Positions 13,954 through 64,000 of a DNA stretch of 64,000 bases are shown here, piece by piece. Below the pieces are notes generated by a model. The model ran no database searches and had not been told where the DNA came from. It saw only the letters and a program-made list of their open reading frames with translations. How positions within the stretch are numbered: position 1 is the stretch's first letter; each line of letters opens with the position of its first letter. The position numbers and the translations under genes were made by a program. The DNA is from Gammaproteobacteria bacterium (ex Lamellibrachia satsuma) (GTDB lineage Bacteria; Pseudomonadota; Gammaproteobacteria; Chromatiales; Chromatiaceae), in assembly GCA_019623805.1 (NCBI GenBank), contig CP053680.1, positions 992,001-1,056,000 on the forward strand. Direction: 5' to 3'.

Positions 13954-14020
13954 TTAGTAAAAACAGGTTAAAGGTCAAAGGTTTCGACTGGAACACATCT
14001 GTTCCAACCACGCACCTTTT

Positions 14021-25345: not shown

Positions 25346-26424
<1,079 letters not shown>

Positions 26425-26428
<4 letters not shown>

Positions 26429-30110: not shown

Positions 30111-33100
30111 TCAGCGTCGGCTTCTAGAACTCCTGGCTTGCGGCGTGGCACTTGCTTCGTTCGAGGAGAGGGACTCGGAGCCGTTCTTCACTGATGTGAC
30201 CACATAGTAGTAGGTCACGCCGTTGGTCAGACCCGGATTGTAGTAGGCGCAATAGTCGCAGACATGCCCGCTTGCGATCTGCGCATAAGGACCACCGGAC
30301 GTGGTGCTGCGGTAGATATTGTAGCTATCAGCCCCTGCCACCGGTGCCCAAGTCAAGAAAACTTCGTTCGACTTGGGACGGGCCGACAGGTTGAAGATCG
30401 TCTGCACTGCTCCAGCCTGCACGGTCACCGTCAAGGTGTCACTACCGACACCGCCGTCCTTGTCCGTGACAGTCAACCTCACTGTATAGACGCCGGCTGT
30501 CAGATAGGTATGGCTCGGGGTCAGACTGCCGCTCACCGGCGCACTGCCGTCACCGAAGTTCCACTCGATGGTGTGCGTATCGACCGATCCAGGATCGCTG
30601 AAACTGCCGCTGAAGCTGGCGCTGCCACCTTCGTTGATCGTCTGGTCCGGCCCGGCGTTTGCGGTTGGTGCAACGTTATTGACTGTCACCGTGGCAGTGT
30701 CGGTGGCCGTAAGCAGGCCGTCACTGACTTGGAGTCCAACTGTGAAGCTGCTGTTGTCAGGTTGGATCGGCAGGGTCACGGTGACGCCGGTAGCATCATC
30801 GTACTGGCCGTCGCCGTCCAGATCCCAAGCGTAGCTGAGTGGGCTCGGTCCGCTGTCAGGATCATTGGAGGCGCTGCCGTCGAGGGTGACGCCTTGGCCT
30901 TCGTTGATTGTGTAGGGGCCACCTGCATTAGCGGTGGGTCCAACGTTGGCGGTGGTGAGGATCACCTGGAAGCTGTCGCTGCCGAAGAGGCCGTCATCAT
31001 CGGTTACCGTGACGGTGACTGTGTAGTTGCCGTCAGCGGCATAGGTATGACTGCCTGCCACGCTGCCATTGCCTGCTCCCTGGGTCACTGTACCTGCGTC
31101 AGTGGTGCCGTCGCCCCAGTCGATGGTGGCTGTGTGGGTATCCTCTACACCGGCATCGGTGAAGGTTGCCGGGGCCAGATTGATAGTATCGCCCGGTGCT
31201 CCGCCCTGGTTCGGACCGGCCTCTACAACAGGCCTGGCATTGCTCACCGAGATGGTTAGGCTGTTGCTGCCGAGGGTGCCATCATCATCGGTCACGCTGA
31301 CAGTGACAGTGTAGATGCCGTCTTCGGCATAGATGTGGTTGCCCAGTGCAACGCTGCCGTTGCCTGCGCCTTGGGTCACTGTACCGAGTTCGGCGGTGCC
31401 ATCACCCCAATCGATGGTCGCTGTATGGGTATCCCCGGTACCGGCATCGGTGAAGCTGGCGTCAGGCAGGGTCACCGTATCGCCTTCGGTGATCGTCTGA
31501 CCTGTGGGTACGGCGACTACCGGCGCCACATTGCCGACGGTGACTGTGAGCGTGTCTGTGTCCATACCGCCGTCCTTGTCGGTAACCGTCAGGGTGACCG
31601 TGTAGACCCCGTTGTCTGCGTAGGTGTGGCTTGGAGTCAGACTGCCGCTCACCGGCGCACTGCCGTCACCGAAGTTCCATTCGATGGTGTGGGTGTCTAC
31701 CGTTCCCGGATCAGTAAAGCTACCTGCGAAGTTGGCCGTATTACCTTCATTGGCTGTCTGGTCAGGACCGGCGTTTGCTGTCGGCGCCACGTTGTTGACC
31801 GTCACCGTGGCAGTGTCGGTGGCCGTAAGTAGGCCGTCACTGACTTGGAGTCCAACGGTGAAACTGGTGTTGTCGGGCTGGATCGGCAGGATGACTGTCA
31901 CGCCTGTGGCGTCATCATATTGGCCATCGCCATCCAGATCCCAGGCGTAGCTGAGCGGGCTCGGACCGTTGTCCGGATCACTGGAGCCACTGCCGTCGAA
32001 GGTGACCGTACCACCTTCGTCGGTGGTGTAGGGACCACCCGCACCCGCAGTGGGCCTAACATTGGCGGTGCTAAGGTTCACCTGGAAGTTGTCGCTGGCT
32101 GATGCACCTTCATCATCGGTTACCGTTACTGTGACCGTGTAGCTGCCGTCCGCCGCATAGACATGGCTGCCTGCCACGTTGCCGCTGCCTGCGCCCTGGG
32201 TCACAGTACCGGCCTCGATGGTGCCGTCACCCCAGTCGATGCTCGCTGTGTGAGTGTCCTCTACACCGGCATCGGTGAAGGTTGCCGGGGCCAGATTGAT
32301 AGTATCGCCCGGTGCGCCGCCCTGGTTCGGACCGGCCTCTACAACAGGCCTGGCATTGCTCACCGAGATGGTTAGGCTGTTGCTGCCGACGGTGCCATCA
32401 TCATCGGTCACGCTGACAGTGGCAGTGTAGATGCCGTCTTCGGCATAGCCGTGGCTGCCCAGTGCAACACTACCGTTGCCTGCACCTTGGGTGACTGCCG
32501 CGTTATCAACAGTGCCGTCTCCCCAATCGACCGTTGCGGTATGGGTATCCCCGGTACCGACATCGTTGAAGGTAGCATCGGGCAGGGTAACCGTACCGCC
32601 TTCGGTGGTCGTCTGGCCTGCGGGTACAGTGACTACCGGCGCCACGTTGCTGACGGTAACCGTCAGGGTATCGCTACCCACACCGCCGTCCTTGTCGATG
32701 ACCGTCAGGGTGACCGTGTAGACACCATTATCAGTATATACGTGGCTTGAGATCAGACTACCGCTCACTGGTGCGCTGCCATCACCGAAGTTCCACTCGA
32801 AACTGTGAGTGTCGGCTGTGCCCGGATCGGTGAAGCTACCGCTGAAACTGGCGGTGTCTCCTTCGTTGATCGCCTGATCGGATCCGGCTTCCACGCTCGG
32901 TGCGGCGTTGTTGACCGCTACGATCAAGGTATCGTTACCCACGCCGCCATCACTGTCGGTAACCGTCAGGGTGACCGTATAAGTACCGTTATCCACAAAG
33001 GTATGACTCGGAGTCAGGCTGCCGCTCACTGTCGCGCTGCCGTCACCAAAATCCCACTCGTAGGTGTGGGTATCGACCGTACCGGGATCGGTGAAACTAC

Positions 33101-36100
33101 CGGCAAAGTTTGTCGTGTCACCTTCGCCGGTGGTTTGATCGGGACCGGCATCCACAAGCGGCACTGCATTGCTGACCGATACCGTTAAGGTATCGGTTCC
33201 TACACCGCCATCGTCATCCGTTACCGTGAGGGTTACTGTGTAGGTACCATCCTCTGGAAATGAATGGCTTGGCGTCAGGCTGCCACTTACACTGCTGCCG
33301 TCACCAAAATCCCATGTGAAACTGTGGGTATCCTGGCTCCCGGGGTCACTGAAAGTGCCGCTAAAGTTGACTGACTCACCCTCTTCTACACTCTGATCCG
33401 CACCGGCATCAACCGTCGGCGATACGTTGTTGACCGTAACCGTGGTGTCAGCTGCGTCGGCCAACAGGCTGTCGCTTACCTGCAGATGGATCGGATAGAT
33501 GCCATCATCCAATGCGTTGAAATTGGGATTCTGTCCGGTGGCATCGCCGAAGCCGCCATCATCATCCAGATCCCAAAGATAGACCAGCGAGTCGCCATTG
33601 GGATCGGCGCCGCTGCCATTCAGCACGACATCATCACCCTCATCGACTGTATAGGGACCACCCACCACCGCTGATGGTCCAAGGTTCTCCACCACGGTGG
33701 CCCGGGTGAACTCCTGGTCGGTCTTGCGCTCGTTCTCGTCAACTTCACCATCACCATCTATATCGTTGAGGAAGCCGTTGTCCCAAACCTTGAGGCCGAT
33801 ATCGAAGGTGCCCAGGTCGATGAAGGTATGTTGCGCAGTTGCTCCGGTCGCGTCGTCGAAGTCCCTCGGTACCTCGGCCAAGTCGAGTTCCCATCCGAAA
33901 CGGACGATGAAGTCATGTGGCTCGTCCAGATCGAATGAGGCAGATCCATCGAGTTGGCAGGCAATGCCCTGGGTGCAGGTATAGGGACCACCCACATCGG
34001 CCACCGGCGGACGGGGCGGAATGCTGATGGTGATCTCGGCGCTATCCGAAGAGGTCAGCGCAGGAACATTATTGTCGGTGACGCGCAAGGTAACGGTGAT
34101 GGTCTGTGGCAGACTGGACTCGGGGTAATCAGCGGAAGCGTAGATATGTTCGACTGTCGGCTCGCTACTCACATGATCGAAGGTACCGTCCCCATCGAAA
34201 TCCCACTCGTACTTGACGATACTGCGGAAGGGATCCAGGTGGAAGGAACCGGAACCGTCGAGGGTAAGTGAACGGTCAACCGCCCAGGTACGGTCCCTGC
34301 CTGCATCCGCCACAGGCGGCTGCACGAACAGACTACGGCTGAGGATGATCACGCCCCAGGCGCTGCGCAACTGGGCGGTAACCCATTCGCTGCCGGGGAA
34401 GCTGCCATCGGTGGACTGGTCGTCCACCAGGGTACGGGCGATGCCAAGTTCCGGGTCGTTGAACCAGTCGAACCCATTGAGCGCGAACTGTTCCACCGGA
34501 CCGGGCTGCGCCAGTCGCATAGACTTGGTCAATGCGTAATAAGGGTAGTAGGGCCGATTACCCAAATTCTTGATGTACTCGGTCTGCCAGTTCTCTGCGA
34601 TCCAATTCTCCGAGGCTCGCCACATGGGACTAGCGGTGTCCATGCCATCCAAGATCAATTGCACCAACCCGGAAGGCGCACCCGTATTGCTGGTGCCACC
34701 CGCCGTATAACCGAATCCAGTGCCGTTGAAACTACTGCCCAGCCAGACGAGGTTTCTCTCCTTCACCCACTGAGATACAGGGATGCCGAAGACATCCTCA
34801 GCGGCGAGTAATCCGACTGCTCCCCACTGCGCCGCCGAGTTGTCGATGGAGTTGTTCCAGCCATAGCGCCAGCCGCCACCGCTACCCTGCTCGGTCTGGC
34901 CCCAGGCGTACTGGTCTGCCATGTCGGTAAGGATGTCGAAATAGGCGCGACGATTTACGTTGGTACCGCCGGTAATGCTCCGCGCCAGCGGTGTTCCCGA
35001 ACTTGCGATGGCATCCATCACCTGGCCACCCTGGTAGATCGGCTGACCGCCGGAGCTACTGGAACGACCATTGATGATGCTGCTCTGACCGGTTTGTATA
35101 CCGATGCCGTTGCCGTTGGTATCCGGCTCGCCGTAAGTCTGGACCGCGATATCCACCGAACCCAGATCACGGAACAGTTGGCGAAAACCGCGCATCACGG
35201 TTTCCGCGTAAGGATCTTCGTGGTGGCTGGAGGTCTCCAGGTGACCGTTGACCAGGAATGCCTGCAAGGCGGAAGCTGTGGCACTTGCCCGTGCGTTACT
35301 GGTCCAGTAACCAACATCGTAGCCGTCCTCGACCCGGCGGCTCTGGGTCTGATGCAGGTACCAGAGTCCCTCGTCGATGGCGACATTGATCTCAGTGTTC
35401 ATGACCTGGGGCTTGACCACGATATTGTAGTTGTCCTGACCCATCTGACCGGCGCTGTCCCAGACCTTGAGGGTGGCCACGAACGGTGTATCGTTCGGCA
35501 CATCAGGATAGGTGTGTTCTATGGATAGGTCGTAACTGTTGGTGACAGCTGTGACAGCCGAAGAGGTACCGTCGCCGAAGTCCCACTGGAATTCAACAGG
35601 ATCGGCATCACGTACCATACCCTTGAGCCGAATCGCCCGACCATTGTAGGTCTCATGGGGCGCCAGCGGATCGTGGGCCACCCAGGGCACGGTAATTACA
35701 TTCGGCGGCAGATTGGGGGCAACCGGCACGGTGACCTGGGCAGTGCTGGTCTGACCGGCGCCGTCCTCTACCGTCAACAGCGCCACATAGCCACCAAGCG
35801 ACTCGACCTTGAAATCATCGAATGTTGCCGTGCTGTGGCTCACCGTAGCGGCAATCTTGAGCGGAGCTATGCTCTGGTTGCGGGAACTGTATGAGGTTAG
35901 CGCGGTCCAGATTGCCGCACCCGCTTCCCGGATGTAGTAATCGGCACCCTGCCCCTTGATATCAATGCGTACCTCATAAGTCGTTCCACGAACATAGCTG
36001 CCTACAGTGCCGCGACCGGAACCATTTTCATAAATCGCCAGACTACCACCGTCGAAATAGATGGCATGGGCCATCGCGTTATAATGCCCACTGGTACCGC

Positions 36101-39100
36101 TGTCTTTGACACCCCACATGATGCGCTGGGTACCACCATCTGCGGCGGGTTGTACCGTACCGGTAAAGCTGAAACGCTCGCGCTCAAAGTTAGCAGTACT
36201 GTAGACATAGCGCTGCCCCCAAATACCACTTCCAGTGATCGACAAAACACCGCTGTCCTGGGTCGCCCCAGCTGAAGTCCACATGGCCGCATCGAGAGAG
36301 GCACCTTCGAAATCATCCGAAAGCAGCACACCATTTACTCCGGTTATCAGGGAATAAGTATGGAAGGGTCGTTGTCCCACTGCGTCGATATCGTTAGTGG
36401 GGTCTCCGTCACCATCACTGTCGGCCTGGTCATCGAAATCCCAACGGTATTCAACAATGCCGTAGTCGTCGCTCGATTGGGAAGCATCGAAATAGGCCGG
36501 TGGCCCACCCGCACCTGCCTGAGAGGGTGGTGTTACCAGCGCGACGGGCATATCACCGGTCACCACTGAGACCGTCGCCGTATCCACGCTGGTCTGACCT
36601 GTGTTGTCAGTCACTGTCAGAGTGACGGGATAATCTCCGGCAGCACGGTAGAAATGGTCAGGATTCGGCCCTTTGCTGGTATACGGAAGATCCGCATCCC
36701 CAGGACCGCCGGAGGTGTCACCGAAATCCCAATGGTAGCTGGCAATTGCGGTATCGTCACTGGAACCATTACCGTCGAAGCGGATGAAACTGCCAACTTC
36801 TGCGGTATAAGGGCCACCGACATCGGCAACAGGGGGAGCGCCCTGCTCCACGCTTACCGTCACGGTCTGGGAGGAGGACTGCAACGCCTGGTCTCGCACT
36901 GTCAGATTGACCTCATGATCACCTGTAGTTGCAAAACCGTACTCCACCATCTCGCCATAGATAACCTGTGCACCGAATGATGGGTTGTCGAATTCAAAGA
37001 CGCCCGAATGTACCGTGCCGCCGATTTTTAGTGGCGTCTCGGTACGGGTGCTGGTCTCATGCAGTAGACTCCAGACGGTTTCGTCAGCCGGCTTCATCTC
37101 GTAGATGGCGCCTTCCGTTTTCAAGGTGATGCGAACATCATAGAGCCTGCCACGAGTATAGCCGCCTTTTACCCCAAGGTTACTACCGTTCTCATAGATG
37201 TTAATTGCTCCGTTCACGAAGTAGACGGCATGGGGCATCTGGTTGTAGTGAAAGTTGCTGGTGCTGCTGTTTTTGAGTCCCCACATACCGTACTGGTTAC
37301 CCGCCAGATTTACCGGCCGGACCTGGAGCTGGAAGACCTTGCCGTCGGTTCTGTCGTGATTGTCCACGCTGGAAAGATAACGATTGCTCCAGCTGCCGAC
37401 ACCGGCCACGACGATCCTTTCTTCCTGATAGACACCCGTGGGTGCGATCCAGCGAGAGACATCCAGGGTGTCTCCTGCAAAGTCGTCGATCAGCAGGGCG
37501 GGATTGAAGACCCACTCATATTCATAGATGCCGAAGTCATCGGTGGAGCCGCTACCGTCGAAGGTACCGTTCCAGAGGCCGTTGCTCGCGTGGCTCTCAT
37601 CCAGCAGTACCGGACCGGCGATGACCGGCTCCGGCGGCGCACCCAGGCTGACAGTTACTGTGGATAACGCCGTGTCGGTCTGGCCCGCCCTGTCGGTGGC
37701 TGCCACGCTCAGGTCGTAGGTGCCGGGAGAGGTATAACGGTGACGCGTGGAGACGCCGCCCAGCCATGTTCCCAGGTCGTTATAGGCGCTCGCCCCACCC
37801 AGGGTCTGGATGACCACCGGCTGACTCGCAGTGATCTGGTGAGGCGCAGTTCCGCTGAAATCGGTAGCATTCAGGCGTAGGTAGCCATCCTGGCCCAGGG
37901 TATCGGCAAGCAGGCCGTTGAGCCTTACCTCGGTACCATCATGGGGCGCAAACACAACCACGCCATCCCCCAGTTCGTGCAGCAGAAAATCCGTACCGCC
38001 AAGGCCGGTGGTGGTGGAGGTATCGTCACCCAGATATGCCAGGGTATCGCCACCCTCGGTATCTCCGGCCCAGACCTCGACGTCACCGTTGGCCACCAGA
38101 CGCAGACGACGGGTTCCGAGGCCATTCTGATACCACATCTGCCCGGCGCTGACCGACTGGGTGTGGAGAGAGACACCGGAATCCATGTCGATGATTTCGA
38201 GGTCAGCATCCTCATGGGCAAAGGCGGCAACGGCACCTGTGGTCGAGCCGACCACGGCAAACTGGAACTCCCACCCGACCGGTGAGCCGTTGGATGAAGG
38301 CACAGTGGTGTAGCCGTTGTTGCCGGTAGTCTGCATCGAGACGGGACCACTGGAGACCACCCGGTAGCGGGTGGTGCCAAGGATCGTCGGCTGCCAATAA
38401 GTACCTGCAGACATCGCCTGTTCTGCAACCAGGTTGTCACTGGTATCAAAAACCCTGACCAAGCTGTCGGCATAGGCGAACAGATAGAAACCGTCGTTGG
38501 GATCGCGGTGGAAGATAAATTCGTTGCCCACCGGCTCCTGATCGAGGGAGGGGACAAAGGCGGAGTGGCGATCGAAATCGCTTTCGTAGACGACGACCGG
38601 CTTGTTCGCCTCGACCTTGAAGTAGACACCGTCACCCGGTGAATAGTCCCACTGGCCGAAGCGGTTCAGGCTGTTTCTGCCAAGTTCCTGGCCGGTTGCC
38701 AGATCAATGACCCGCAGTGCCGTGTCATCTTCAACAGCGATGATGCGCAGAGACGCTTGTGTCAGATCGTAGCCATAGAGATCGGTACCGGCGGTAAAAT
38801 AACCCGTGTTCAGTGAACCGCTTTGGGCCGTGGTGTGAGTGGTGCCATCGCCAAAATCTATGGTGAAACGCTGGATGGCCTGATCATCCGTAGAGGCCGT
38901 CAGATCGGGTTCCAGCAGCCAGCGACCAGCTTGGGCATCCGCCTCGGTGAGTTCATAGGGGCCGCCATTATCGGCTACCGGAGCCACACCCGCTTCCACC
39001 ACAACCTGCTGTAACGAAATGGTGCTTTGGCCTGCATGATCGGTGGCGGTCAACTGGATATCGTAAATACCCTCGGCAGAATAGCTATGGGGTACGGCGC

Positions 39101-42989: not shown

Positions 42990-43001
42990 ATCCGTTCGTC
43001 T

Positions 43002-49166: not shown

Positions 49167-49333
49167 GACCAACTCTCCCTTTCACAAAAGTAACCTGCTT
49201 TGTTGTTTTTCCGGTTCCCCGGCAGTCTTTTTGAGCCTTGTCTCTATAAATTAGAGGCTTCTTAGGGCCAATAAGCACAAAACGCTATCAGCCGAAACTT
49301 CAAGCACACAATGTTACACAGCATTTTCCGTGC

Positions 49334-49350
49334 ACAATATTATATATTGT
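49334..49350 (-). promoter_or_regulatory. AT-rich inverted repeat overlapping a -10-like box
   Basis: ACAATAT and ATATTGT arms flank TAT. A minus-strand TATAAT (49344-49339) lies inside, pointing to the RHS gene 170 bp downstream. No good -35 is seen, so this may be a regulated promoter. Confidence 0.4.
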
Positions 49351-49614
49351 TGATATTAATGGGTTTTATTTATGGCGGATTAGATCACCCTTAAATAATG
49401 TAAAATATCTCGACAGTTTAGGAACAATTGCCCCTAAACAGCAGTGAATTCCACTAGAAAGTCAGCCCTGACAGGCCATTTATTGCTGATCAGATCCAGA
49501 AAGACTTCGTAAGCCTATGTAATTGCACTGCTCTTTCAGCATTCGGTAGATTACTGATAGTGTAAAAATAACCGACACTAAAAGAGCATCAAGCAAGAGA
49601 GACTGGCATAGAAC

Positions 49615-49680
49615 GTAGGGTGTACCGCACGCACCATTATTGCTGCAATTGCTTATTCTGGTGCGCACGGCGCACCCTAC
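49615..49680. repeat. REP-like inverted repeat
   Basis: 21-bp arms beginning GTAGGGTG (49615-49635) and ending CACCCTAC (49660-49680) pair at 17 of 21 positions around a 24-nt centre. GTAGGGTGCGC elements of this sort are common between genes in gammaproteobacteria. Confidence 0.7.
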
Positions 49681-49813
49681 CATATGAATTAAATACCCCT
49701 ATACCGCTGGGTTAGGTTGCGTAGAATGTTTGACTCCAAGTCCAATTATGCCGAGTTGCGCATCTGACCTACGATGCTTTGTGCAGCGGGGCGCCGTTCC
49801 TACAGGTCGTTTA

Positions 49814-52800: not shown

Positions 52801-55800
52801 TGTAGGGGCCGTTGGCGTCGGCGATGGGGGCCAGGTTGGCGACCACTGTCACGGTAGTGAAGACCTGGTCACTCAGGCGCTCGTTCTCGTCGAGTTCGCC
52901 GTCGCCATCGAGGTCGTTGAGTACGCCGTTGTCCCAGACTCGCAGGCCGACATTAAAGGTGCCCAGGTTGCTGAATACCGGTGACGGGTTGCTGCCGGTC
53001 GCTTCGTCGAAGTCGAACGGGAAGACAGCGTCCAGCTCCCACTCAAAGCGGGCGATGAAATCGGTGGGATCGATATCAAACGAACCCGTGCCATCCAGTG
53101 TGCAGGGCAGACCCTGGGTACAGGTGTAGGGACCGCCTATCTCAGCCACCGGTGGATGGGGCGGAATCGCGATGACCACATTCAGCGTATCGGTGTCTGT
53201 CAATGCCGGTACATTGTTATCAGTCACCCGCAGGCTCACGGTAATGGTCTGGGGCAGTGTAGCTTCCGGATACTGCGACAATGGATAGGTGTGGGTTGCC
53301 GTCGGATCGGTACTGCTGGTATCAAAGTTACCATCACCATCGAAGTCCCACTCGTACCTGATCAGGCTGCGGAAAGGATCAAGATGGAATGAATCGGAGC
53401 CGTCGAACTCTAGGGGCAGATCAACCGCCCACACACGGTCACGACCGGCTACCGCCACCGGCGGCTGTACGAACAGGGTACGACTGAGAATGATGACACT
53501 CCAGGCAGAGCGCAGTTGCTTCGTAATCCATTGGATACCCGCGAACTCACCGGTGGTAAGCTGCTCATCGATCAGGATACGTGCCAGCCCCTCGGCCGGG
53601 TCACTGAACCAGTCGAAACCGTCATGGTCGAATTTGACCACGGGCGTCGGCTTGGCCAGGCGCATCGCCTTGGTCATCGCATAGTAGGAGTAGATCGGAC
53701 GGTTGCTCACATTTATATCGTACTGGGCATCCCAGTTGTCGCGCATCCACCTCTCAGATGTGATCCAGCGAACGTCCGAAGTCTCCAGCTCATCGAAGAC
53801 CATCTGCACTAGGCCGGAAGGCGTGCCGGCTTGAGTGGTGGCGGGACCGGAATATCCAAAGCCGACACCGCTATAGCTGTTGGTGATCCACACCAGGTTC
53901 CGGTCCTTGACCCATTGGGGAATCGCAACGCCGAAGACATCCTGGGCCGCCAGCAGACCGATGGCGCCCCACTGGGCCGCAGAGTTGTCGATACTGCTGT
54001 TCCAGCTATACCGCCAGCCACCGCCGCTACCCTGCTCGGTCTGACCCCAGCCAAACTGATCGGCCATATCGGTGAGGATATCGAAATAGCTGCGCCGGTT
54101 GATGTTGGCTGCGCCCGTGATGGTGCGCGCAAGGGGCGTACCGGTACTGGCAATGGCATCCATCACTTGGCCGCCCTGGTAGATTGGCTGAGCGCCGGAA
54201 CTGTTCTGTCCCGTCTCGATACCGATACCGTTACCGTTGGTGTCCGGTTCGCCGTAGGTCTGGGTCGCGATGTCCACCGTACCGAGATCCCGGAACAGTT
54301 GCCGCAGTCCACGCACCACCGTCTCCTGGTAGGGATCTTCTGCCGGGTCGACACTCTCCAGGTGACCATTGATCAGGAAGGACTGGATCGATGAGGCAGT
54401 GGCACTCGCCCTGGCGTTACTGGTCCAGTAGCCCGTCTCATAGCCTTCGGCCATGGTACGGGTCTGCTCCTGGTGCAGGTACCAGAGACCCTCATCGATG
54501 GCGACGTTGATCTCGGTATTCAGGGTCTTGGGCTTGACCACGACATTGTAGTTGTCCTGGCCCATCTGGCCGAGGCTATCCCATACCTTCAGAATTGCCA
54601 CAAACGGCGTACCGGCGGGGGCATCGGGATAGGTATGGCTCATCGACAGATCATGGGCATCAGTGATGGTCGTAACCGCCGATGAAGTGCCATCACCGAA
54701 ATCCCACTGGAAGGTCATGGCGTCTGCGTCACGCACGATACCTTTCACACGGATAGTCTTACCGTTGTAGATTTCATGCGGTGCGATGGGATCTTGGGCC
54801 ACCCAGGGCACGGTAATGACATTCGGCGGCAGATTCGGCGCCACATGCTGTTCCAACTGGGTCGAGTGGGTCTGGCCTGCGCCGTCTTCCACGGTCAGGG
54901 TCACGACCTTGGGTCCGGTACCTTCGATCTGCGCTTCATCGATCTCAAAACTACCGCCCCAGACATCCATGCCAATACGAAGCGGTGAGCCGGTTCTGTT
55001 CAGGGATGAGTAGGTGGTCAACGGCGTCCAGGGGTTGGGATTGGCCGCGTCGTGCTCACGAATGAAATAGTCTGCACCTGCCACTTTGGTATCGATACGT
55101 ATTTCGTACCAGGTGCCTGGCACATAGGTGCCTACAACGCCGCGATTGGAGCCGTCCTCATAGACGTGGAGCGCTCCGTTGTTGAAATAGATGGCATGAT
55201 GCAACTGATTGTAGTGACCGCTGGTTGCGTGGTTGCTTCTCAGTCCGATCATCATGTAGCTGGCGATCGCGTCATTCTCCCGCACCAGAGACTGGAAGCG
55301 CATTCCCTCAGCACGAGCCTGATTATCATTGGTGAATGCGTAGGTACGGCCCCAGGCACCATCACCAGTCAGTTTGAGCAGACCATTCTCTTCGGCCACC
55401 ACGCCACTGAAGGTATTGGTGGTCCAGCCGGTGATAGTCCCGTTATTGAAATCATCACCCAACAGCGTCACGCCCGAGGGAGCCGTGGCAGTGCTGTAGA
55501 CATGGTACGCGCGCGGGCCGACGGCATCGATGTCGTTGGTGAAATTCCCGTCGCCATCCCTGTCGGCATCAGCATCGAAATCCCAGCGGTATTCGACGAT
55601 GCCGTAGTCATCCACGGAGGTAGTAGCGTCAAAGTAGGCCGGCGGTCCGCCTGCAGCAGGCTCGGCAAGAACCTGGAAGTTGGCGTTGGGACCACCACCA
55701 GTGACCACCTCGACAGCCGCGGTCGCGGTATGGGATTGGCCCACATTGTCTGTCACCGTCAGGCTGGCAGTATAGGTGCCTGTCTGTTGGTAGAAGTGCT

Positions 55801-58800
55801 TGGTTATCGAACCCTTGCCCTTGTACGGCAGGTCGGCGGTCTCGGCCCCTGGAGCCACTACCCCACCCGTCATGTCACCAAAGGTCCAGTCGTAGTGCTG
55901 GATGGCCGTATCGTCGGTGGAGGCGGTGCCGTTGAAGAGTAGCATGCTGCCCACTTCGACCGTGTAGGGGCCACCTGGATCCGCCACCGGTAGTGCGCCG
56001 GTTTCAAGGGTAATGGTGGTGGTATCGAAGGCCGCCTGCAGTGCATTGTCCCGGACCCGCAAGGTCACGCTGTCGATAGTGGGCGCCGAGTATTTGCGAC
56101 TGACAACCGGCCCGTCCAAAACGCTGGCTGGCAGCTTGGCATTGTCGAACTCGAAGGTGCCATTGTTGATCGTTCCGCCAGCCTTCAGCAGCAACTCGGT
56201 GGAGTAAGCGGAATCATAGAGCAGCGTCCAATCGGTCGCCGAAGCCTCTTTCATTTCGTAGATCGCCCCACCCGCTTGCTTGGTGGTGATGCGGATGTCG
56301 TAGAGCACACCACGGGTATAGGTGCCTATATTGCCCCGGTAGGCACCATCTTCATAGACAGCAATAGCGCCATTATTGAAATAGATCGCATGAGGCATCT
56401 GATTATAGTGGTAGCTGTCACTGGTGTTCTTCAACCCCCACATGGCGCGCTGAGTGCCCGACAGATTGACCGGCAATATCTGCGCTTCGAATACGGTAGC
56501 GCCTGTCCGCTTGGTATTCTCCTTGGAGAAGATATAGCGGTTGCCCCAATTATTTGCCCCGGTAACGATTACCCGTTCATCCTGGGTCAATCCGGCGCTT
56601 CTCAACCAGCGGGTGTGATCGGTATCAGTGCCGGCAAAATCGTGGGTCTCCGGGGTAAAGGTCCACTCATAATCGAAGAGCGCGCTGTCGTCGGTTGAGT
56701 TCGTACCGTCCAGCGATACGGTCCAGACACCATAGCTGGCCTCCGCCTCACCAAGTTCATACGGGCCGCCTGCATCGGCCACCGGCGGCACGCCGGTTTT
56801 CACCAGGACATCGAAGGTGGTGGAAGTCTGCTGTCCCGCACGATCCGTCACAGTCAGGGTGACGGTGAAGGTTTGTTCGTTAACACCTGCCGGCAGGTTG
56901 AAGATGTGGGTCGGATTGACGCCGGTTGCACTACCGCCATCGCCGAAGTCCCATTCGTAGAGAATGATCTCGGAATCATCCGTGGATGCACTGGCGTCGA
57001 ACGCAACGGAGTAATCACCACCGCTTGCGAAGGATTCGTCAACGGTTGCCGGTGCATCGATAGCTGGCACAGGGGGATTCCCCTGCTGTACGTCAACGGT
57101 GGTGACGCTGGTATGGTTCTGCCCTGCACGGTCGGTGACTGTCAGCGTGACGTCGTACTGACCGACAGTCGTGTACAAGTGCCGCGTCGAGACGCCGCCG
57201 AGATAGGTACCAAGATCGTTGAAGGCATTCGCTCCACCCAGCGTCATTATCACTACCGGCTTGGAGGCAGTAATGTGATGCACACCGCTACCGGATGGGA
57301 AATCGGTCGGCGCCAGATGCAGATAGCCGTCGCGGGCGAGTGTCTGGTTGATAGCACCTCCATCGATATCGACCACAGCGCCATCGTTGGGGGAGAAGAT
57401 AACAATGCCGTTTCCGAGGTTGTGCAGATGGAACTCGGTCCCACCCTGCCCCGTGGTCATGGAATAATCGTCACCCAGGTTAAGGATGCCGGTACCGCCT
57501 TCAGTGTCGCCGGCCCATACCTCCACGTTGCCGGTGCTGGCGAAACGCAACCGCCTCAACCCGACGCCGTTCTGGAACCACATCTCACCTGATGCCAGGG
57601 TATGGGTGTACAGAGAGGCTCCGGTATCCAGATCGAAGACTTCAAGATCGGCCGCCTGATGGGCAAACACCGCAAAAGCACCTGTCCCCTGATTATGAAC
57701 AGCAGCATAGAAATCGGTTCCCGCCGCGCTGCCGCTGAACGAAGGCACCGTGGTATACCCGTTGCCACCCACTGTCTGCATCGCTATCCGGCCTGATGAA
57801 ACGACTTGGTAAACCCTTGCGGCAAAACTGGTCTGCCAGTAATCACCTGCACGCAGGTTGCGCTCACCGACCAGGGCCCCTGCCGAGTCGAGGAAACGCA
57901 CTTGTGTATCTTCAATTGCGTAGACGTAGAACCCGAGATTCAGATCCTGATAGAAGATGTACTCATTTCCGACCGGAGTGCCGTTCATGGACGGCATGAA
58001 TGCGGAGTGTTGAGCAAAGTCCGTCTGGTAGACCGTCACCGGCTTGTTTGCCTTGACCTTGTAATAGGTCCCCGCCGGCATGGAAGTGTAGCTCCAGCTC
58101 TGCATCCTGTTCAGGACGTTGGTGGCAATTATATTTCCTGTGGCCAGATCAATCAGCTCCACCTGGGTACCATCTTCGGTGGCAATGACATAGGGATAAC
58201 CATCACCGAGATCGTAGCCGTATAGATCGGTACCGGTTTGGAAATAACCGACTTGTCCACCATCGCCGGAACCTGTGGTGTAACTCGTGCCATCACCGAA
58301 ATCTATGCTGTAGCGTTGAACATCGACATCATCGGTAGAGCCTGAAGCATCGAGAATGAAGTCCCAACGGCCGTTCCAGGCTTCGAGTTCCGTCAGCACA
58401 TAGGGACCGCCTGGATCCGCAACGGGCGGGGCATTGGCAGTCACGTTGGTGTTCAGGACTGAGGTGTCTGTCTGGCCAGCATGATCGGTGGCGGTCAGGG
58501 TGACGTTCTGCACACCGGTAGTGGTAAAGCCGTGAGCGAAGTCGTCGAGGCTCTGGCCGTTTTGCGTCCAGGCAACATCATGTGGCGTCACCTTGACGTT
58601 GTCGTACATCACATGCTGGCCATTGGCCAGTAACCCGATGCCGCCCATGGGATGGGCCGCACTGGTGGTCTCGACCTGCAAGGTCTCGACGCCACCTTCC
58701 GGTGTAACGAAGAGTTGCATGGTGTCACCGACCACCACCATTCTCAGGTGATACCAGGTTTCGGGATCCCAGCCGGTGCCGCCTTCCGCCAAAGTGGTGC

Positions 58801-61800
58801 CCGTATTCCAGTCGTAGAAGCGCCAGAAGTCCCACTCTTCTTTCGAGTACATCAGGAAGGTGTTCTGGCTGCCCTTGGCGTTTGGATTGTGGAACACTAT
58901 ACCTATGTAGCCCTGGGTCGTGCCGACACCCTTGAAATCGACTTCCAGGGTGAAATCCTTGTAACTGCGATTGAGATCCTGCAGCCAGCGCCAGGCAGCG
59001 CCGGTACTTGTCTGCTGCAGGACTTCATTCGGTGCATTCCAGGTTCCGCCGTTGACGGTCCAGACCGGATCGGCCGTGTAGTTGCCGTCGCTGAAATCAT
59101 CCGCGAGGGGTGCCACGGTCGAACTGCTGCCGTCGCCCCAGTCGATATCCAGACGGGCGATGCTCTCTGCATCACTTGAACCGCTGGCGCCATACCAACC
59201 GCTCCACTCGGCGAGAGATGCCTGGTTTTCATCCAGGCTCAGCGGCCCGGTGAACATTGCAACCGGTGTTGCGCCACCCTGGACAGTAACCGTTGTCGTT
59301 GCGCTGTGGACCTGATCGACTTCATCGTAGACAGTCAGTGTGACGGTGTAGATACCTGGCGCATTGTAGGTGACCCTTGGCAGGATATTGCTTGAATCCA
59401 CCGTGATGCCATCGCTGGCATCGAAATCCCATTCGTAGCGGGCAATGCTGGTATCAGCATCGCTGGAGCCTCTTGCATCCAATGCCCCGTGCCAGCGGCC
59501 GCTGAGTGCCATTGCTTCATCGAACACATAGGGACCTGTCGGCACGGCAACCGGGAGTTCGCCGAGTACCCGCACCTTGACGCTGTCTCTGTCGGTCTGT
59601 CCCTGGTCATCGGTAACGGTGAGTACAACTGTATAGTCGCCCTCATCCACATAGGTGTAGGTGACGTCGGATCCGGTCGCACTGCCACCGTCACCAAAAT
59701 CCCACTCATAGCTGAGGATGCTGCCGTCATCGAAAGAACCAGCACCACTGAAGTCGACAGAGCCCCCTTCGTTGATCAAATCGCTGCTGCCGGTAGCGGC
59801 ACTGAGGGGCTGTCCAGGAACACGACCTGCCGGTGCTGCCACACCCAGCATAGTGGTGGGCCCAGTGCCTATCTCGATCCGGGCACCGAAGGTAGCGTCT
59901 CCATTGCCAGGATAGAACCACGCCTTGCGACCCGTGTAATCGACCGAGACCACATCCTGGTTGCCGTCGTTATTGAAATCGTAGTGGCCATAGGCAGAAT
60001 AGTTGTTGGCATCCAGGGAGGGGACGCTGATACCGGCCTGGAAGGTGCCGTTGCCGTTGCCCTTGAAGAACCAGGGATCTCCACTGCTACCGTTGTTTGC
60101 AATCAGGTCGGGTGTCCCGTCTCCATCGAAATCCGCCAGGGCGACACCGTAAGGATCATTACCTGGATCAGCGACTTCGGCCGAGATCGTGAAGGCAGCG
60201 GTGCCGTCACCCATATGCATATGGACCTTGCCGCCGCTGGAGTGGGCGCGGGCGAAATCCATGTTGCCGTCGCCGTCCACGTCATCTGCGTCCATGCCGC
60301 GACCAGCGGTGCCTGCGGTAGGCTGATGGGTGATGTCAAAACCGGAGACCATGTTGCGGTAGGAAATTCGGAAATCATCGAACCAGAAGTGATCGCTGGC
60401 GCCTGCGTTGGAGTTGCTCCAGAATTCGAACTCGGTAATCTGGTTGGCGTTTGGCCAGTGGGGGCGTAGCACCTCGTAGAGGTCGATGGTCACCGTGCGC
60501 CAGGTATCGTCGTCGATCAGGTTGACCGCCCCAAGGTCGGTATAGATCCCGGAATCCCGGTTGGGGGTACCGCCCAGCGAGATCCAGCCGTGGCTAAACA
60601 CATTGACGAAGAGGCCGGTGGGCACGCCATTGGGAATGCGGTAGGCAAAAGTCACCTTGGAACCCGCATAGAGGTACCAACTGGACGGGTTGACATCGAG
60701 CTGCAGACAGGAGTTCACAGCAGTAGCGCTGACCTTCATCGACCAGGTGCCGCTGTTGGCGGTTGTGTCATCCCGGGCGATGCCTGTCCTGCAAGCCTGT
60801 CCGCCCCAGCCCTCGTTGCCTGTCTCGAAGCCGCTGTTGAAGAAGTCCTGTTCGTCGATCACCAGCGCGCCCTGGTTGCGCAGCAGCCAGGTATTCGCGT
60901 TGTTACCATTGAGCAGGAAGTCCATCTGGCCATCATTGTCGAAGTCTTCCGCAACCATATCCATCAGGTAGCTGGTGATAGACTGGGAGCTATCGCCGAC
61001 CGCCCCAATATAGGCCGGCGATTTGAATCGGGGTCCGTCCTTCTCGTAGAAGTAGAGATGCACACTCGGATTGGAGGGACGACCGGTAACAAAATCGAAA
61101 TCGCCATCGTGGTCGAAATCGCCGATGACGGCACCCCGGGTCAGACTGCCGGCGAAGTCATCCATGAAGGTGAGCGGCTGGAAGGTGCCGTCCCCGTTGC
61201 TGCGGGCGGTATAGATCTGGGCACTGTCGGTGGTGGAGACCATGTAGATCTCCGGCCCGATGCTGACCTGGAAGGATTGGGTATCGAACAGCCCTTCGCT
61301 GTCTTCCACCCGGACGGTGACATCGCTCTTGAGCGGATCGGCTGCGGTGGGCGTCCAGCTGATCAGACCAGTTGCGGAATCGACCGTCATTCCTGCCGGA
61401 GCAGTGGTGAGCGAGTAGCTCATCACATCGCCGTAGACGGCTTCTGGATCATTCACCTGCACCTGGTAGCGATAGGGTACATTCTCGGCCGCGGTGGTGG
61501 CCGCGGTGGAAACGATGCTTGGTGCATGGTTCAGGTCACCGACCACCACGGTCAGATCCTGGGTGCTGGTATTGCCCCCATCATCGGTAACCTGCAGTTG
61601 AACCTGGTAGACACCCTCATCAGGATAGGTGTAGGGCACCACAGGTCCTATCGCCTGGAAGCCGTTTTGCAGGGTCCAGAGATATTGGGTGACAGTGCCG
61701 TCAGAGTCGCTCGATCCCGTACCGTCCAGTACCACCTCTGTGCCGGTCGCCACATGGATGTAGGTCGGTGTCGTTGCCGCCAGGGGTTCACCATCGGCGG

Positions 61801-62461
61801 CGAACATCAGGTTATCGAGGAAGACCGCTGAGTCGGCCCGACCGTCACCGACATCCTCCACCCTGAGTTCAAGGGTAAAACTGTCTCCGCTGCCGGCATG
61901 GGCGGAAACATCGGTTACCAGCTTCTGGAAACCGGTCTGTTTATCATAGCCGCTCCAGGGCGCCGGATAGAAAGCACCAAAGGTATCCTGCACCAGCAGG
62001 ATCTCCTCGCCACCGGCAGTCACCAGCAGAAGTTTGACCGTAAAACGGTCGTTGGTTTTGCTCGGTGTGGTTTCGTTGGTGAGGAAGTTATAGTCGAGGC
62101 GCAGGGTGGAAGCATCCACCGGGATGATGAAGTTCTCAATGGTCAAGGTGCTGACGTCTGCATCTGTCGGTTGTGTGCCTGCATCCGGGCTGGTGGTCAT
62201 CAGCACTGCCTGAACGCCTTCGGTGGGCTGCAGTATGCCGATACCGGCCGAGGTAGCCACATCGCCGGTGGTCACTGTGCCGCCCAAGCCTGATTCGAAG
62301 GTTCCATCCGCTGCGCCGATGGCATGGTCAGCGGCCCACAAGGCATTCGAACTCACCCCTGCCTGAAGCCCAAGAAGCAGCGCAAGAGAGAGCGCGCCGG
62401 AACCGATCCTGTCGCGGATTCCGGCGATCATCCCATTAACTGTTCTCGGTCGTTTCATCAT
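49814..62461 (-). CDS. Giant exported PKD/FG-GAP/toroid multidomain protein, copy 2 (4215 aa)
   Basis: A full-length paralogue of the 30111-42989 protein with the same domain order. Signal peptide (LSLALLLGLQAGVSSNALWA), beta-sandwich domain, PKD and Ig-like domains, FG-GAP/VCBS repeats (about 400-880), and PKD/LamG-like/adhesin-like middle. Then the squalene-cyclase-like helical domain (about 2645-2990, GGWRYSWNSSIDNSAAQWGA), a long tandem PKD run, and a C-terminal fibronectin-III domain with CDYC and basic tail TSRGRRR. Aligned segments around the toroid look about three-quarters identical to copy 1. It lacks a short Ser-rich insertion (SSIINGRSSSS) seen in the copy-1 toroid. It begins 12 bp after its RHS gene, the same spacing as copy 1. 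Function is not known. Confidence 0.85.
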   Translation of the reverse strand: MMKRPRTVNGMIAGIRDRIGSGALSLALLLGLQAGVSSNALWAADHAIGAADGTFESGLGGTVTTGDVATSAGIGILQPTEGVQAVLMTTSPDAGTQPTDADVSTLTIENFIIPVDASTLRLDYNFLTNETTPSKTNDRFTVKLLLVTAGGEEILLVQDTFGAFYPAPWSGYDKQTGFQKLVTDVSAHAGSGDSFTLELRVEDVGDGRADSAVFLDNLMFAADGEPLAATTPTYIHVATGTEVVLDGTGSSDSDGTVTQYLWTLQNGFQAIGPVVPYTYPDEGVYQVQLQVTDDGGNTSTQDLTVVVGDLNHAPSIVSTAATTAAENVPYRYQVQVNDPEAVYGDVMSYSLTTAPAGMTVDSATGLISWTPTAADPLKSDVTVRVEDSEGLFDTQSFQVSIGPEIYMVSTTDSAQIYTARSNGDGTFQPLTFMDDFAGSLTRGAVIGDFDHDGDFDFVTGRPSNPSVHLYFYEKDGPRFKSPAYIGAVGDSSQSITSYLMDMVAEDFDNDGQMDFLLNGNNANTWLLRNQGALVIDEQDFFNSGFETGNEGWGGQACRTGIARDDTTANSGTWSMKVSATAVNSCLQLDVNPSSWYLYAGSKVTFAYRIPNGVPTGLFVNVFSHGWISLGGTPNRDSGIYTDLGAVNLIDDDTWRTVTIDLYEVLRPHWPNANQITEFEFWSNSNAGASDHFWFDDFRISYRNMVSGFDITHQPTAGTAGRGMDADDVDGDGNMDFARAHSSGGKVHMHMGDGTAAFTISAEVADPGNDPYGVALADFDGDGTPDLIANNGSSGDPWFFKGNGNGTFQAGISVPSLDANNYSAYGHYDFNNDGNQDVVSVDYTGRKAWFYPGNGDATFGARIEIGTGPTTMLGVAAPAGRVPGQPLSAATGSSDLINEGGSVDFSGAGSFDDGSILSYEWDFGDGGSATGSDVTYTYVDEGDYTVVLTVTDDQGQTDRDSVKVRVLGELPVAVPTGPYVFDEAMALSGRWHGALDARGSSDADTSIARYEWDFDASDGITVDSSNILPRVTYNAPGIYTVTLTVYDEVDQVHSATTTVTVQGGATPVAMFTGPLSLDENQASLAEWSGWYGASGSSDAESIARLDIDWGDGSSSTVAPLADDFSDGNYTADPVWTVNGGTWNAPNEVLQQTSTGAAWRWLQDLNRSYKDFTLEVDFKGVGTTQGYIGIVFHNPNAKGSQNTFLMYSKEEWDFWRFYDWNTGTTLAEGGTGWDPETWYHLRMVVVGDTMQLFVTPEGGVETLQVETTSAAHPMGGIGLLANGQHVMYDNVKVTPHDVAWTQNGQSLDDFAHGFTTTGVQNVTLTATDHAGQTDTSVLNTNVTANAPPVADPGGPYVLTELEAWNGRWDFILDASGSTDDVDVQRYSIDFGDGTSYTTGSGDGGQVGYFQTGTDLYGYDLGDGYPYVIATEDGTQVELIDLATGNIIATNVLNRMQSWSYTSMPAGTYYKVKANKPVTVYQTDFAQHSAFMPSMNGTPVGNEYIFYQDLNLGFYVYAIEDTQVRFLDSAGALVGERNLRAGDYWQTSFAARVYQVVSSGRIAMQTVGGNGYTTVPSFSGSAAGTDFYAAVHNQGTGAFAVFAHQAADLEVFDLDTGASLYTHTLASGEMWFQNGVGLRRLRFASTGNVEVWAGDTEGGTGILNLGDDYSMTTGQGGTEFHLHNLGNGIVIFSPNDGAVVDIDGGAINQTLARDGYLHLAPTDFPSGSGVHHITASKPVVIMTLGGANAFNDLGTYLGGVSTRHLYTTVGQYDVTLTVTDRAGQNHTSVTTVDVQQGNPPVPAIDAPATVDESFASGGDYSVAFDASASTDDSEIILYEWDFGDGGSATGVNPTHIFNLPAGVNEQTFTVTLTVTDRAGQQTSTTFDVLVKTGVPPVADAGGPYELGEAEASYGVWTVSLDGTNSTDDSALFDYEWTFTPETHDFAGTDTDHTRWLRSAGLTQDERVIVTGANNWGNRYIFSKENTKRTGATVFEAQILPVNLSGTQRAMWGLKNTSDSYHYNQMPHAIYFNNGAIAVYEDGAYRGNIGTYTRGVLYDIRITTKQAGGAIYEMKEASATDWTLLYDSAYSTELLLKAGGTINNGTFEFDNAKLPASVLDGPVVSRKYSAPTIDSVTLRVRDNALQAAFDTTTITLETGALPVADPGGPYTVEVGSMLLFNGTASTDDTAIQHYDWTFGDMTGGVVAPGAETADLPYKGKGSITKHFYQQTGTYTASLTVTDNVGQSHTATAAVEVVTGGGPNANFQVLAEPAAGGPPAYFDATTSVDDYGIVEYRWDFDADADRDGDGNFTNDIDAVGPRAYHVYSTATAPSGVTLLGDDFNNGTITGWTTNTFSGVVAEENGLLKLTGDGAWGRTYAFTNDNQARAEGMRFQSLVRENDAIASYMMIGLRSNHATSGHYNQLHHAIYFNNGALHVYEDGSNRGVVGTYVPGTWYEIRIDTKVAGADYFIREHDAANPNPWTPLTTYSSLNRTGSPLRIGMDVWGGSFEIDEAQIEGTGPKVVTLTVEDGAGQTHSTQLEQHVAPNLPPNVITVPWVAQDPIAPHEIYNGKTIRVKGIVRDADAMTFQWDFGDGTSSAVTTITDAHDLSMSHTYPDAPAGTPFVAILKVWDSLGQMGQDNYNVVVKPKTLNTEINVAIDEGLWYLHQEQTRTMAEGYETGYWTSNARASATASSIQSFLINGHLESVDPAEDPYQETVVRGLRQLFRDLGTVDIATQTYGEPDTNGNGIGIETGQNSSGAQPIYQGGQVMDAIASTGTPLARTITGAANINRRSYFDILTDMADQFGWGQTEQGSGGGWRYSWNSSIDNSAAQWGAIGLLAAQDVFGVAIPQWVKDRNLVWITNSYSGVGFGYSGPATTQAGTPSGLVQMVFDELETSDVRWITSERWMRDNWDAQYDINVSNRPIYSYYAMTKAMRLAKPTPVVKFDHDGFDWFSDPAEGLARILIDEQLTTGEFAGIQWITKQLRSAWSVIILSRTLFVQPPVAVAGRDRVWAVDLPLEFDGSDSFHLDPFRSLIRYEWDFDGDGNFDTSSTDPTATHTYPLSQYPEATLPQTITVSLRVTDNNVPALTDTDTLNVVIAIPPHPPVAEIGGPYTCTQGLPCTLDGTGSFDIDPTDFIARFEWELDAVFPFDFDEATGSNPSPVFSNLGTFNVGLRVWDNGVLNDLDGDGELDENERLSDQVFTTVTVVANLAPIADANGPYTVDEGSSIALDGTGSSDPNGDALTYGWDYNNDGAYDDATGPAPVYTGLDDGIYPVELQVSDGLLDNTSGTTVTVNNVAPTADAGADQTVNEGDTVNFTGSFSDPGTADTHTIAWDFGDGNSASGSVTPSHVYAEDGVYTVTLTVTDDDGGVGTASMIVTVENVTPTVDAGADQTITEGDTASFAGSFTDPGTLDTHTTEWNFGDGTTESGTLSPTHTYAEDGTYTVTLTVTDDEGAVGTDSLTVTVNNAAPIVEAGPDQSGVLGDTISLAPATFTDAGVQDTHTATIDWGDGATEPGTLTQGAGSGSVAGSHAHTADGTYTVTVTVTDDEGAVGSDSFQVILASGNAGPTADAGGPYTINEGDTVTLDGSGSSDPDNGPSPLSYAWDLDNDGQYDDATGVTVTLPVQPDNTSFTIGLEVSDGLLTATDTATVRVNNVSPSVDAGADQTANEGDTVNFAGSFTDPGTADTHTTEWNFGDGSSTSGSLNPTHTYADNGVYTVTLTVTDKDGGVGTDTLTVTVGNVAPVVAVPAGQTITEGDTVTLPDATFNDVGTGDTHTATVNWGDGTTASSAVTQGAGGGSVALGSHTYAEDGVYTVTVTVTDDDGAVGSNSLTVTVNNAAPVVEAGPNQSGAPGTAIALAPATFTDLGVQDTHAATIDWGDGTIEPGIVTQGAGSGSVAGSHSYAADGSYTVTVTVTDDEGAFGSDSLQVNLTTANVGPTANAGGPYTINEGVGVTLDGSGSNDPDNGPSPLSYAWDLDNDGQYDDATGVTVTLPIQPDNTSFTVGLQVSDGVLTDVDSATVTVNNVAPTTDAGPDQAIDEGDTASFAGSFTDPGTQDTHSIEWNFGDGSASVSGSLTPTHTYATAGVYTVILTVTDKDGGVGSDTLTVTVQAGAVQTIFNVTARAKPTEVFVMWTPVTGADSYNVYRSTTSGGPYAQIANGYVCDYCSYWDQGLTNGMTYYYVVTSVIGGAESLHSNEASATPQERTSRGRRR
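50110..52600 (-). repeat. Tandem PKD-coding array, copy 2
   Basis: PKD units of about 240-330 bp in tandem, with higher-order repeats (for example 50467-50560 against 51580-51670) and strong similarity to the array at 30430-33480. Confidence 0.85.
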
Positions 62462-62473
62462 TCAAACCGTCCG

Positions 62474-64000
62474 TTAGAAGCTCGGCATAATGCTGAGCAG
62501 AGTATCGGCATTGTCGTCCAGGAAGGTGAACTGGTCGCAGGCCGAACCGATAGTGAAGGCTTCGTAGCCCTCTTTGGCCTTTCTATAACCCTCCTCGAAT
62601 CCATCGACCCAGCCGCTTGCCTGTTCGTAGAAATTGATCACTTCCGCAATCTCGGGCGGCAAGGGCAATGAACCAAACGGGTCACTGAGCATATCCTGGA
62701 TGTCATCGACGACAGTGCGGAATTCAACCTTGAAATCGATCACTTCATTGAGGGTATCTTCGTAGACTTGTGCCGCACGGCGACCGATGGCCTTATAGCC
62801 TGCAGCGATCTGGCCGTGGGCCTGCATCACCAGATGCTCACCACCCGGCATGTTGTTGGCGATCATGTCCAGGCCCATGGTCTGCATCTTGTAGGCCGGT
62901 TCGAGAGTGCAGTAGGCAATCTTTGCCGCTGCAAAGAAGAACTTGACCAGGTTCTTGGTATAGATCGAACGGATGGTGGTCTGGATCGACATGCTGACGC
63001 TGAGCGATACCAGAGTAAAACGGCCTGTCGGATCTGTATAGTTGACCGGGTTGTCGTTGGCGTAGAGGTAACGGTGCAGACTGACCGGGGTCATAGGATC
63101 GCCTACCGCCGGATCGACAGAGACGAAACGTCCGTTAACAGGATCATAGTAACGCTTACGCAGATAATAGAACCCGGAGTTGGGATCAAACTGCTCACCG
63201 GCAAAGCGATAGTTATTCTGGGTGGTTCCGGTGGAGGCGATCTCGTTGCCGTAGGCATCGAAGGTGTAGGTATCGGTGACTGCCTCACCCGCACCCGTCA
63301 GGGTTCGGATGCTACCGAGACCATCCGGATGGTATTGGCTCAGGGCAGTACCGCGCCGCTGGGTCAGAAGTTCCAGGCCATAGGTGTATTCCGATAGCAC
63401 CGCTCCCGTATCGCTCTGTTCCTCGATGACCTGCACCAGTCCGGTATTGCTTCGAATATCGGTCAGGAAACGTTGTGTTCCCGATGTATCAGTACGACCA
63501 ACACGGAAATCATCGGCATCGTATTCATAAGTCGTTACCGCGCCACCCGGTGCTGTGGTCGACACCATGCTGTTACCGGCATCGTAGCCAAAGAGTGTTG
63601 CAGCAGCACCCACCGTAATACTGATCAGGTTGCCGTTATCGTCATAGACATAGGCGCCCGTGCCATCACTGACGATGCGGTCGTTGACATCATAGGTATA
63701 GCTCGTGAGCGTGCCATCCTTGTCCATCGAGGTACGGTTGCCCACGGCATCGTATGCATACTGGGTGTCGTAGGCGTTGCCACCGGTGCGCGTCTCCCGC
63801 AACAGTCGGGCATTATCATCATAGAGGTAGACCACGTTGTTACCCAAGGGCAGCTCATCCATGCGGGTACGCAGGCCGTTGGTATCCAATGTATAGATAT
63901 GCTGACTGATAACGCTGTCATCACTGCGTTTGTGTACCACCCCGGTCAACTGATTGCGGTTGTTGTAACCGTATTCAGTGTAGGTACCGTTAGCCCGCTC
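62474..64000 (-). CDS. RHS/YD-repeat protein, copy 2 (partial, C-terminal 508 aa)
   Basis: The frame is open to the right edge, so the N-terminus lies outside. YD repeats (YAYDAVGNRTSMD, YEYDADDFRVGRT) lead into the RHS core end YYDPVNGRFVSVDP and DPTGR. The ~178-residue tail that follows (RFTLVSLSVSMS... to LLSIMPSF) is unlike the tail of copy 1. It has a hydrophobic patch (LVKFFFAAAKIAY) and a helical region. Variable tails after DPxGR are typical of polymorphic RHS proteins. The stop is 12 bp before the giant PKD gene. Confidence 0.85.
   Translation of the reverse strand, partial: ERANGTYTEYGYNNRNQLTGVVHKRSDDSVISQHIYTLDTNGLRTRMDELPLGNNVVYLYDDNARLLRETRTGGNAYDTQYAYDAVGNRTSMDKDGTLTSYTYDVNDRIVSDGTGAYVYDDNGNLISITVGAAATLFGYDAGNSMVSTTAPGGAVTTYEYDADDFRVGRTDTSGTQRFLTDIRSNTGLVQVIEEQSDTGAVLSEYTYGLELLTQRRGTALSQYHPDGLGSIRTLTGAGEAVTDTYTFDAYGNEIASTGTTQNNYRFAGEQFDPNSGFYYLRKRYYDPVNGRFVSVDPAVGDPMTPVSLHRYLYANDNPVNYTDPTGRFTLVSLSVSMSIQTTIRSIYTKNLVKFFFAAAKIAYCTLEPAYKMQTMGLDMIANNMPGGEHLVMQAHGQIAAGYKAIGRRAAQVYEDTLNEVIDFKVEFRTVVDDIQDMLSDPFGSLPLPPEIAEVINFYEQASGWVDGFEEGYRKAKEGYEAFTIGSACDQFTFLDDNADTLLSIMPSF

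Follow-up and report, generated by a model that had tools for sequence, protein, structure and literature searches.

The question raised by this locus is whether genes for RHS proteins and for very large, apparently exported proteins, which lie side by side in repeated modules, encode one functional unit and of what kind. The window, meaning the whole stretch of 64,000 nucleotides under analysis, is G000:C1:992001-1056000, taken from a genome (G000) assembled as a single contig of 4,323,754 bp. A sequence-only reading had described two RHS genes, each followed 12 bp on by a gene for a protein of more than 4200 aa, with the two giants paralogous to each other. This description was confirmed, with the following features in window coordinates.

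30111..42989, minus strand: giant1, 4292 aa, with a signal-like N-terminus (by eye), PKD, He_PIG and FG-GAP repeats, lectin-like inserts between PKDs, an IgGFc-binding-like domain, an (alpha/alpha) toroid, a PKD array and an Fn3-like C-terminus with an Arg-rich tail
30114..30434, minus strand: C-terminal Fn3-like domain with Arg-rich tail of giant1
34311..35405, minus strand: predicted (alpha/alpha) toroid domain of giant1, aa 2529-2893
37710..38804, minus strand: IgGFc-binding-like domain of giant1, aa 1396-1760
43002..49172, minus strand: RHS1, 2056 aa, with a signal-like N-terminus (by eye), FG-GAP repeats, Ig-type domains, DUF6531, RHS shell, RHS core and C-terminal tip
43005..43430, minus strand: C-terminal tip of RHS1, 142 aa, type A
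49814..62461, minus strand: giant2, 4215 aa, architecture as in giant1
62474..64000, minus strand: C-terminal part of RHS2 (full RHS2 2368 aa, genome 1054474-1061580)
62477..63022, minus strand: C-terminal tip of RHS2, 182 aa, type B1

Reading the sequence to the right of the window completed RHS2 at 2368 aa and revealed a third pair, RHS3 (2299 aa) and giant3 (4364 aa), so that three RHS-giant pairs lie within about 87 kb, the whole locus on the minus strand. In order of transcription these are RHS3, 51 bp, giant3, ORFs of 4612, 3731 and 445 aa, then RHS2, 12 bp, giant2, 641 bp, RHS1, 12 bp and giant1. The spacing of exactly 12 bp noted earlier therefore holds for two pairs but not for the third. 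The giants are mostly 47–66% identical to each other and the RHS proteins 33–54%, and judged by sequence the three pairs are old paralogues. A genome search with a 2550-aa piece of giant1 returned giants 1–3, the remaining matches being single PKD-type stretches.

The genus of the window includes deep-sea tubeworm symbionts, and four of its six genomes match Escarpia or Lamellibrachia symbiont records. Among these records, G074 matches the Escarpia spicata symbiont, G075 the E. laminata symbiont, G077 and G078 match Lamellibrachia anaximandri symbionts and, outside the genus, G048 matches Halochromatium glycolicum. Judging by its genus, the bacterium that carries the window is probably a tubeworm symbiont as well. 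The toroid occurs in 11 of 210 family genomes, comprising all six of the genus and 5 of the 204 others, among which it is sporadic; the order-level search covers the same 210 genomes. In wider samples it was found in 2 of 369 genomes of the class sample including the window's own (1 of 368 others) and in 1 of 398 of the phylum sample, again including its own (0 of 397 others). The IgGFc-binding-like domain is likewise present in all six genomes of the genus. In each of these six at least one RHS gene is directly followed by a giant or a giant start, with three such pairs in G000. A pairing confined to this site, which the sequence-only reading had named as its refutation, was therefore not what the search showed: RHS followed by a toroid giant is found again within the genus, in G027, G048 and G150, which represent three further genera of the family, and in Candidatus Litorirhabdus (locus L045, Candidatus Litorirhabdus singularis).

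The locus varies between genomes of the genus. The E. laminata symbiont has pairs 1 and 3, with only a 377-aa ORF carrying a giant C-terminus at the expected site of pair 2. G074 has pair 3 and a giant remnant, with a recombined or decayed copy of the locus at G074:C2:464000-483000, and in G076 the locus is rearranged and contains N gaps (G076:C1:262000-322000). Assembly errors may contribute to these differences. Two further giants lie between pairs 2 and 3 of G000. The 4612-aa one (genome 1074778-1088616) has Ig-type domains and a subtilase, the other (genome 1063554-1074749) is 3731 aa long, and the compared pieces of the two are 89–93% identical in the E. laminata symbiont.

Pairing was counted over a broad set of 23 toroid loci, consisting of 20 family loci, L044, L045 and the full-length L048 locus. 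An RHS gene lies directly upstream in 14 (three in G000, two each in G075, G078 and G027, one each in G074, G077, G150, G048 and Litorirhabdus), is fused to the toroid in one, is lacking in three and is not judgeable in five. The single fused locus, G048:C1:4418-12640, encodes toroid and RHS in one ORF (Pfam). Of the five that are not judgeable, G077 C21 and L044 abut the ends of their contigs, one is a remnant in G074 and two are G076 pieces from a gapped, rearranged stretch. No RHS gene was found directly upstream of the toroid gene in G205, G152 and L048, indicating that the toroid does not always need RHS; all three lack the IgGFc-like domain. Left out of the set was a second, short toroid ORF of 443 aa near the full-length toroid protein of the L048 contig (L048:18045-19612, minus strand), which gives two overlapping tblastn segments, as if its frame were broken.

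The pairing is stricter for giants that combine the toroid with the IgGFc-like domain (n=14). RHS precedes all 11 with a readable 5' flank (three in G000, two in G075, one each in G074, G078, G027, G150, G048 and Litorirhabdus), while the other three are not judgeable due to contig ends (G077 C21, L044) or an N gap (G076). In G076 the giant starts ~80 bp after RHS, and the gap separates this start from the IgGFc-like domain. RHS-to-giant spacing in relatives ranges from a 22-bp overlap to 84 bp. PKD/FG-GAP giants of environmental bacteria share the long PKD and Ig-type arrays with lectin-like inserts, but differ from these giants, which have an IgGFc-like domain, a toroid and an adjoining RHS gene in 11/11 judged cases.

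The same two parts are also found on one chain. When proteins were searched with the toroid region, 186 of the 1652 candidates scored proved to be relatives at E<=1e-10; 120 of these relatives were listed, and toroid and RHS (a core or >=6 YD motifs) share a chain in 35 of the 120. The toroid precedes RHS in all 34 fused chains with an RHS core match, among the matches listed, which is the reverse of the split gene order. A further relative, P0066, has PF05593 in its precomputed domain list. Some sources name such one-chain giants PKD domain-containing or RHS repeat-associated. They resemble the split pair in having a homologous toroid-PKD region, an RHS shell and some tip types in common. They differ in being a single chain with the toroid first and in lacking the IgGFc-like domain, for which none of the 35 gave an HMM match. 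A tree of 122 toroid sequences gathers most fused forms in a single group but places P0037 and P0052 apart from it; fusions occupy at least three places in this tree, whose basal support is weak. Separate genes in one lineage and a single chain in another are a classic hint of joint function, so the fusion supports a functional pair and makes the split genes look like one unit.

The identities of RHS core and toroid region also correlate over 14 pairs (r 0.71, with 0/10000 permutations as high), two of the pairs being 98% identical. This is supportive rather than decisive, as species relatedness contributes. When partners are swapped within genomes, the real arrangement ranks second of 48, and the top one exchanges two G027 pairs. 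Adjacency by chance or by a shared mobile history, without joint function, might be suspected of a locus that recombines, as the remnants or rearrangements in G074, G075 and G076 indicate. However, the adjacency is retained at close spacing across genera and in Litorirhabdus despite divergence, and the toroid-RHS fusions recur across the weakly supported tree. Adjacency of this kind, without joint function, is therefore regarded as highly improbable.

What the pair does depends on the nature of its RHS member. RHS1 matches PF05593 (E 1.8e-71) and TIGR03696 (E 8.2e-22), and Pfam also finds PF05593 in RHS2 and RHS3. Likeness to RHS/YD-repeat polymorphic toxins (PF05593 with an RHS core) lies in the RHS repeats, the DUF6531 of RHS1, the core ending in DPxG and the C-terminal tip. 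The differences are an N-terminal half of FG-GAP and Ig-type domains, a giant partner in place of the small downstream gene, and tips that are unreplaced between orthologues. An N-terminal PAAR domain defines a T6SS Rhs effector, and this identity was rejected for RHS1–3, in which PAAR is not among the Pfam hits at E<=1e-3. A toxin exported by another route is an alternative to be weighed: the RHS barrel would enclose a toxic tip and the giant would serve as a delivery or receptor-binding stalk, with bacteria or host cells as the target. The DPxG motif kept at the end of the RHS core speaks for such a toxin, and many YD-repeat genes of mussel symbionts have been read as toxin-related, according to excerpted text of PMC4612132. 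Against it, no immunity-size ORF fits between RHS and giant, either in the gaps of 12, 12 and 51 bp or in the spacings of relatives, and no small immunity gene was found directly downstream of RHS, where the giant is the next gene. Nor did the RHS1 tip match a Pfam family above cut-off or the RHS2 tip any at E<=1, and PADLOC returned no match in RHS1 or RHS2.

Elsewhere in the genome a fourth RHS gene (2381 aa; genome 3043141-3050286) has the conventional layout, with a hydrophobic-looking ORF of 118 aa 6 bp behind it (together L012:7141-14649, genome 3043141-3050649). This ORF is a possible immunity gene.

The tips themselves bear on the toxin from both sides. They differ between the pairs of G000, being 26% identical between RHS1 and RHS2 and 24% between RHS2 and RHS3 (two comparisons), although profile comparison shows the tips of RHS2 and RHS3 to be related. 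Profiles of the split-RHS tips match 9 of 34 fused tips at E<=0.01, covering types A, B and C. This suggests that tips are mobile over long times, as expected of effector modules. Between orthologues, by contrast, tips can be aligned in 20/20 comparisons, and replacement of the tip with the shell kept was not seen in any of these; a change of type was seen only at large distance, in the fused proteins. In 13 of the 20 the tip is within 10 points of shell identity, and in the other seven it is lower by more than 10, which would suit a toxin. Among G000, G074, G076 and G078 the RHS3 tips are 91–96% and the shells 91–93% identical (RHS3 of G000 against the other three, tip 91–94%, shell 91–92%), whereas RHS3 of the E. 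laminata symbiont has 66–67% in the tip versus 89–90% in the shell. RHS2-type tips are 58–66% identical versus 58–70% for their shells, the RHS2 tip being 58% identical to those of G150 and G048. For the RHS1 type, tip versus shell is 73% versus 89% in the E. laminata symbiont and 57% versus 58% in G027. Among orthologues, tips therefore evolve mostly with their shells, and a toxin is considered rather unlikely. The interpretation of the sequence-only reading thus holds in part: recurrence of the pair and fusion support a functional pair, while intercellular competition loses ground, given that no candidate immunity gene was found at the pair and that tip and shell mostly evolve together among orthologues. 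The tip types on distant fused proteins still count in its favour.

The domains of the giants offer further clues. PF17517 (IgGFc_binding) matches 8 of 13 homologous domains at E<=1 (best E 2.3e-6), the window member itself being unmatched. The toroid is predicted to fold as a double ring of helices across the whole domain, and terpene cyclases rank first for it in both Foldseek and VIA. DxDD is the catalytic motif of squalene-hopene cyclase, a class II terpene cyclase, and this identity was rejected as the motif is absent from the giant1 toroid (by eye). A second alternative, a surface glycan-processing complex, would assign enzymatic activity (glycosidase, lyase or epimerase-like) to the toroid, substrate binding to the lectin-like domains and the role of a structural or storage shell to RHS. 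This appears quite improbable, as a fold match to terpene cyclases shows no activity and no credible catalytic family was found by Pfam or by profile search against PDB sequences.

C-terminal to the toroid, giant1 has 11 PKD units (own HMM), followed by the Fn3-like tail. Similar Fn3-like, Arg-rich C-termini are present in all three giants and in those of G075, G150, G048 and G027. The Fn3 part of the giant1 tail matches seven places in the genome, of which three lie outside the locus, with one match weak and interrupted. Among many of the listed relatives, giants of distant bacteria have this C-terminus in common (by eye, uncounted). The tails of other giants are MYXO-CTERM-like or dockerin-like, and the shared Fn3-like, Arg-rich C-terminus may be a sorting signal that has no name yet. 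An Fn3 domain is reported in all sampled siboglinid symbiont genomes, as a possible adhesion protein, in a part of PMC6194059; it may be the same element as the giant tail.

With moderate confidence, RHS and giant are taken as a conserved pair whose products, predicted to be exported, would likely form one surface contact apparatus; a surface delivery or adhesion role, as first suggested, appears to fit the domain make-up. Export of both proteins would use Sec at the inner membrane and probably type II secretion at the outer one. The genome has four secretin matches, and a section of PMC6194059 reports core components of type II secretion in siboglinid symbionts. The giant may then act as a long adhesive scaffold, a retained stalk with binding domains, in which the PKD array sets a variable length, the lectin-like and IgGFc-binding-like domains attach to glycans or mucin-like surfaces, and the C-terminal Fn3 and Arg-rich tail serves as a retention signal. 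The RHS protein, predicted to be a closed barrel, would be held near the toroid and face the host or an adjacent cell. Since the toroid is fused to RHS elsewhere, the toroid region may dock or process the barrel. The two would thereby assemble into a complex, and the tip could be displayed or released on contact with the target.

Teneurins combine Ig and propeller modules, a YD shell and a C-terminal domain with a transmembrane anchor; the corresponding parts that Pfam finds in the RHS proteins are FG-GAP, Ig-type and YD. The order of parts appears similar to that of teneurins and of the BC shell of Tc toxins, with Ig-like and propeller-type modules first, then a predicted YD shell and, at the C-terminus, a cargo-like domain; a giant partner is not known from either system. 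An SpvB N-terminal domain and a TcA partner define TcB/TcC of a Tc toxin. Neither family is among the Pfam hits at E<=1e-3 of the five proteins scanned (RHS1–3, giant1 and giant2), and a TcB/TcC identity was rejected. Teneurins are described as adhesion proteins in an excerpt of PMC6693077. A tentative extension, possible though doubtful, is that an unrecognised machine for surface contact is built from toroid and RHS and comes in two versions, a one-chain toroid-PKD-RHS protein and the split gene pair. The toroid would be a dedicated RHS docking or processing domain, with tubeworm symbionts using tandem split copies, as a bacterial counterpart of teneurin adhesion, for host recognition and entry. 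A host role cannot be general, as the Litorirhabdus and Halochromatium carriers are not known as symbionts.

None of the individual domains is new. Apparently undescribed are the split RHS-giant pair, the corresponding one-chain form and the occurrence of the pair in all six genomes of the genus. The pair was not found described in open-licence literature, judged by titles and term look-ups. The terms 'RHS' and 'PKD' are absent from the main text of the tubeworm papers PMC6194059, PMC12045306, PMC5787263, PMC8476170, PMC6918071 and PMC7787665, and a further one, PMC7540712, has a single 'Rhs', in its reference list. The pairs bear on host recognition and colonisation by vestimentiferan symbionts, since their presence in all six genomes of the genus narrows the search to a few proteins that may contact the host. 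The existence of both split and fused forms also allows a direct test of the toroid as a partner domain for RHS shells.

Two short repeats lie elsewhere in the window. About 26 TCGGGC hexamers occupy 25569-25723, within a 360-aa ORF (25346-26428) beside a VWA-domain gene. At 14014-14053, ACCTTTA is repeated 5.7 times with 96% matches, between ORFs at 13544-13957 (plus strand) and 14072-14446 (minus strand).
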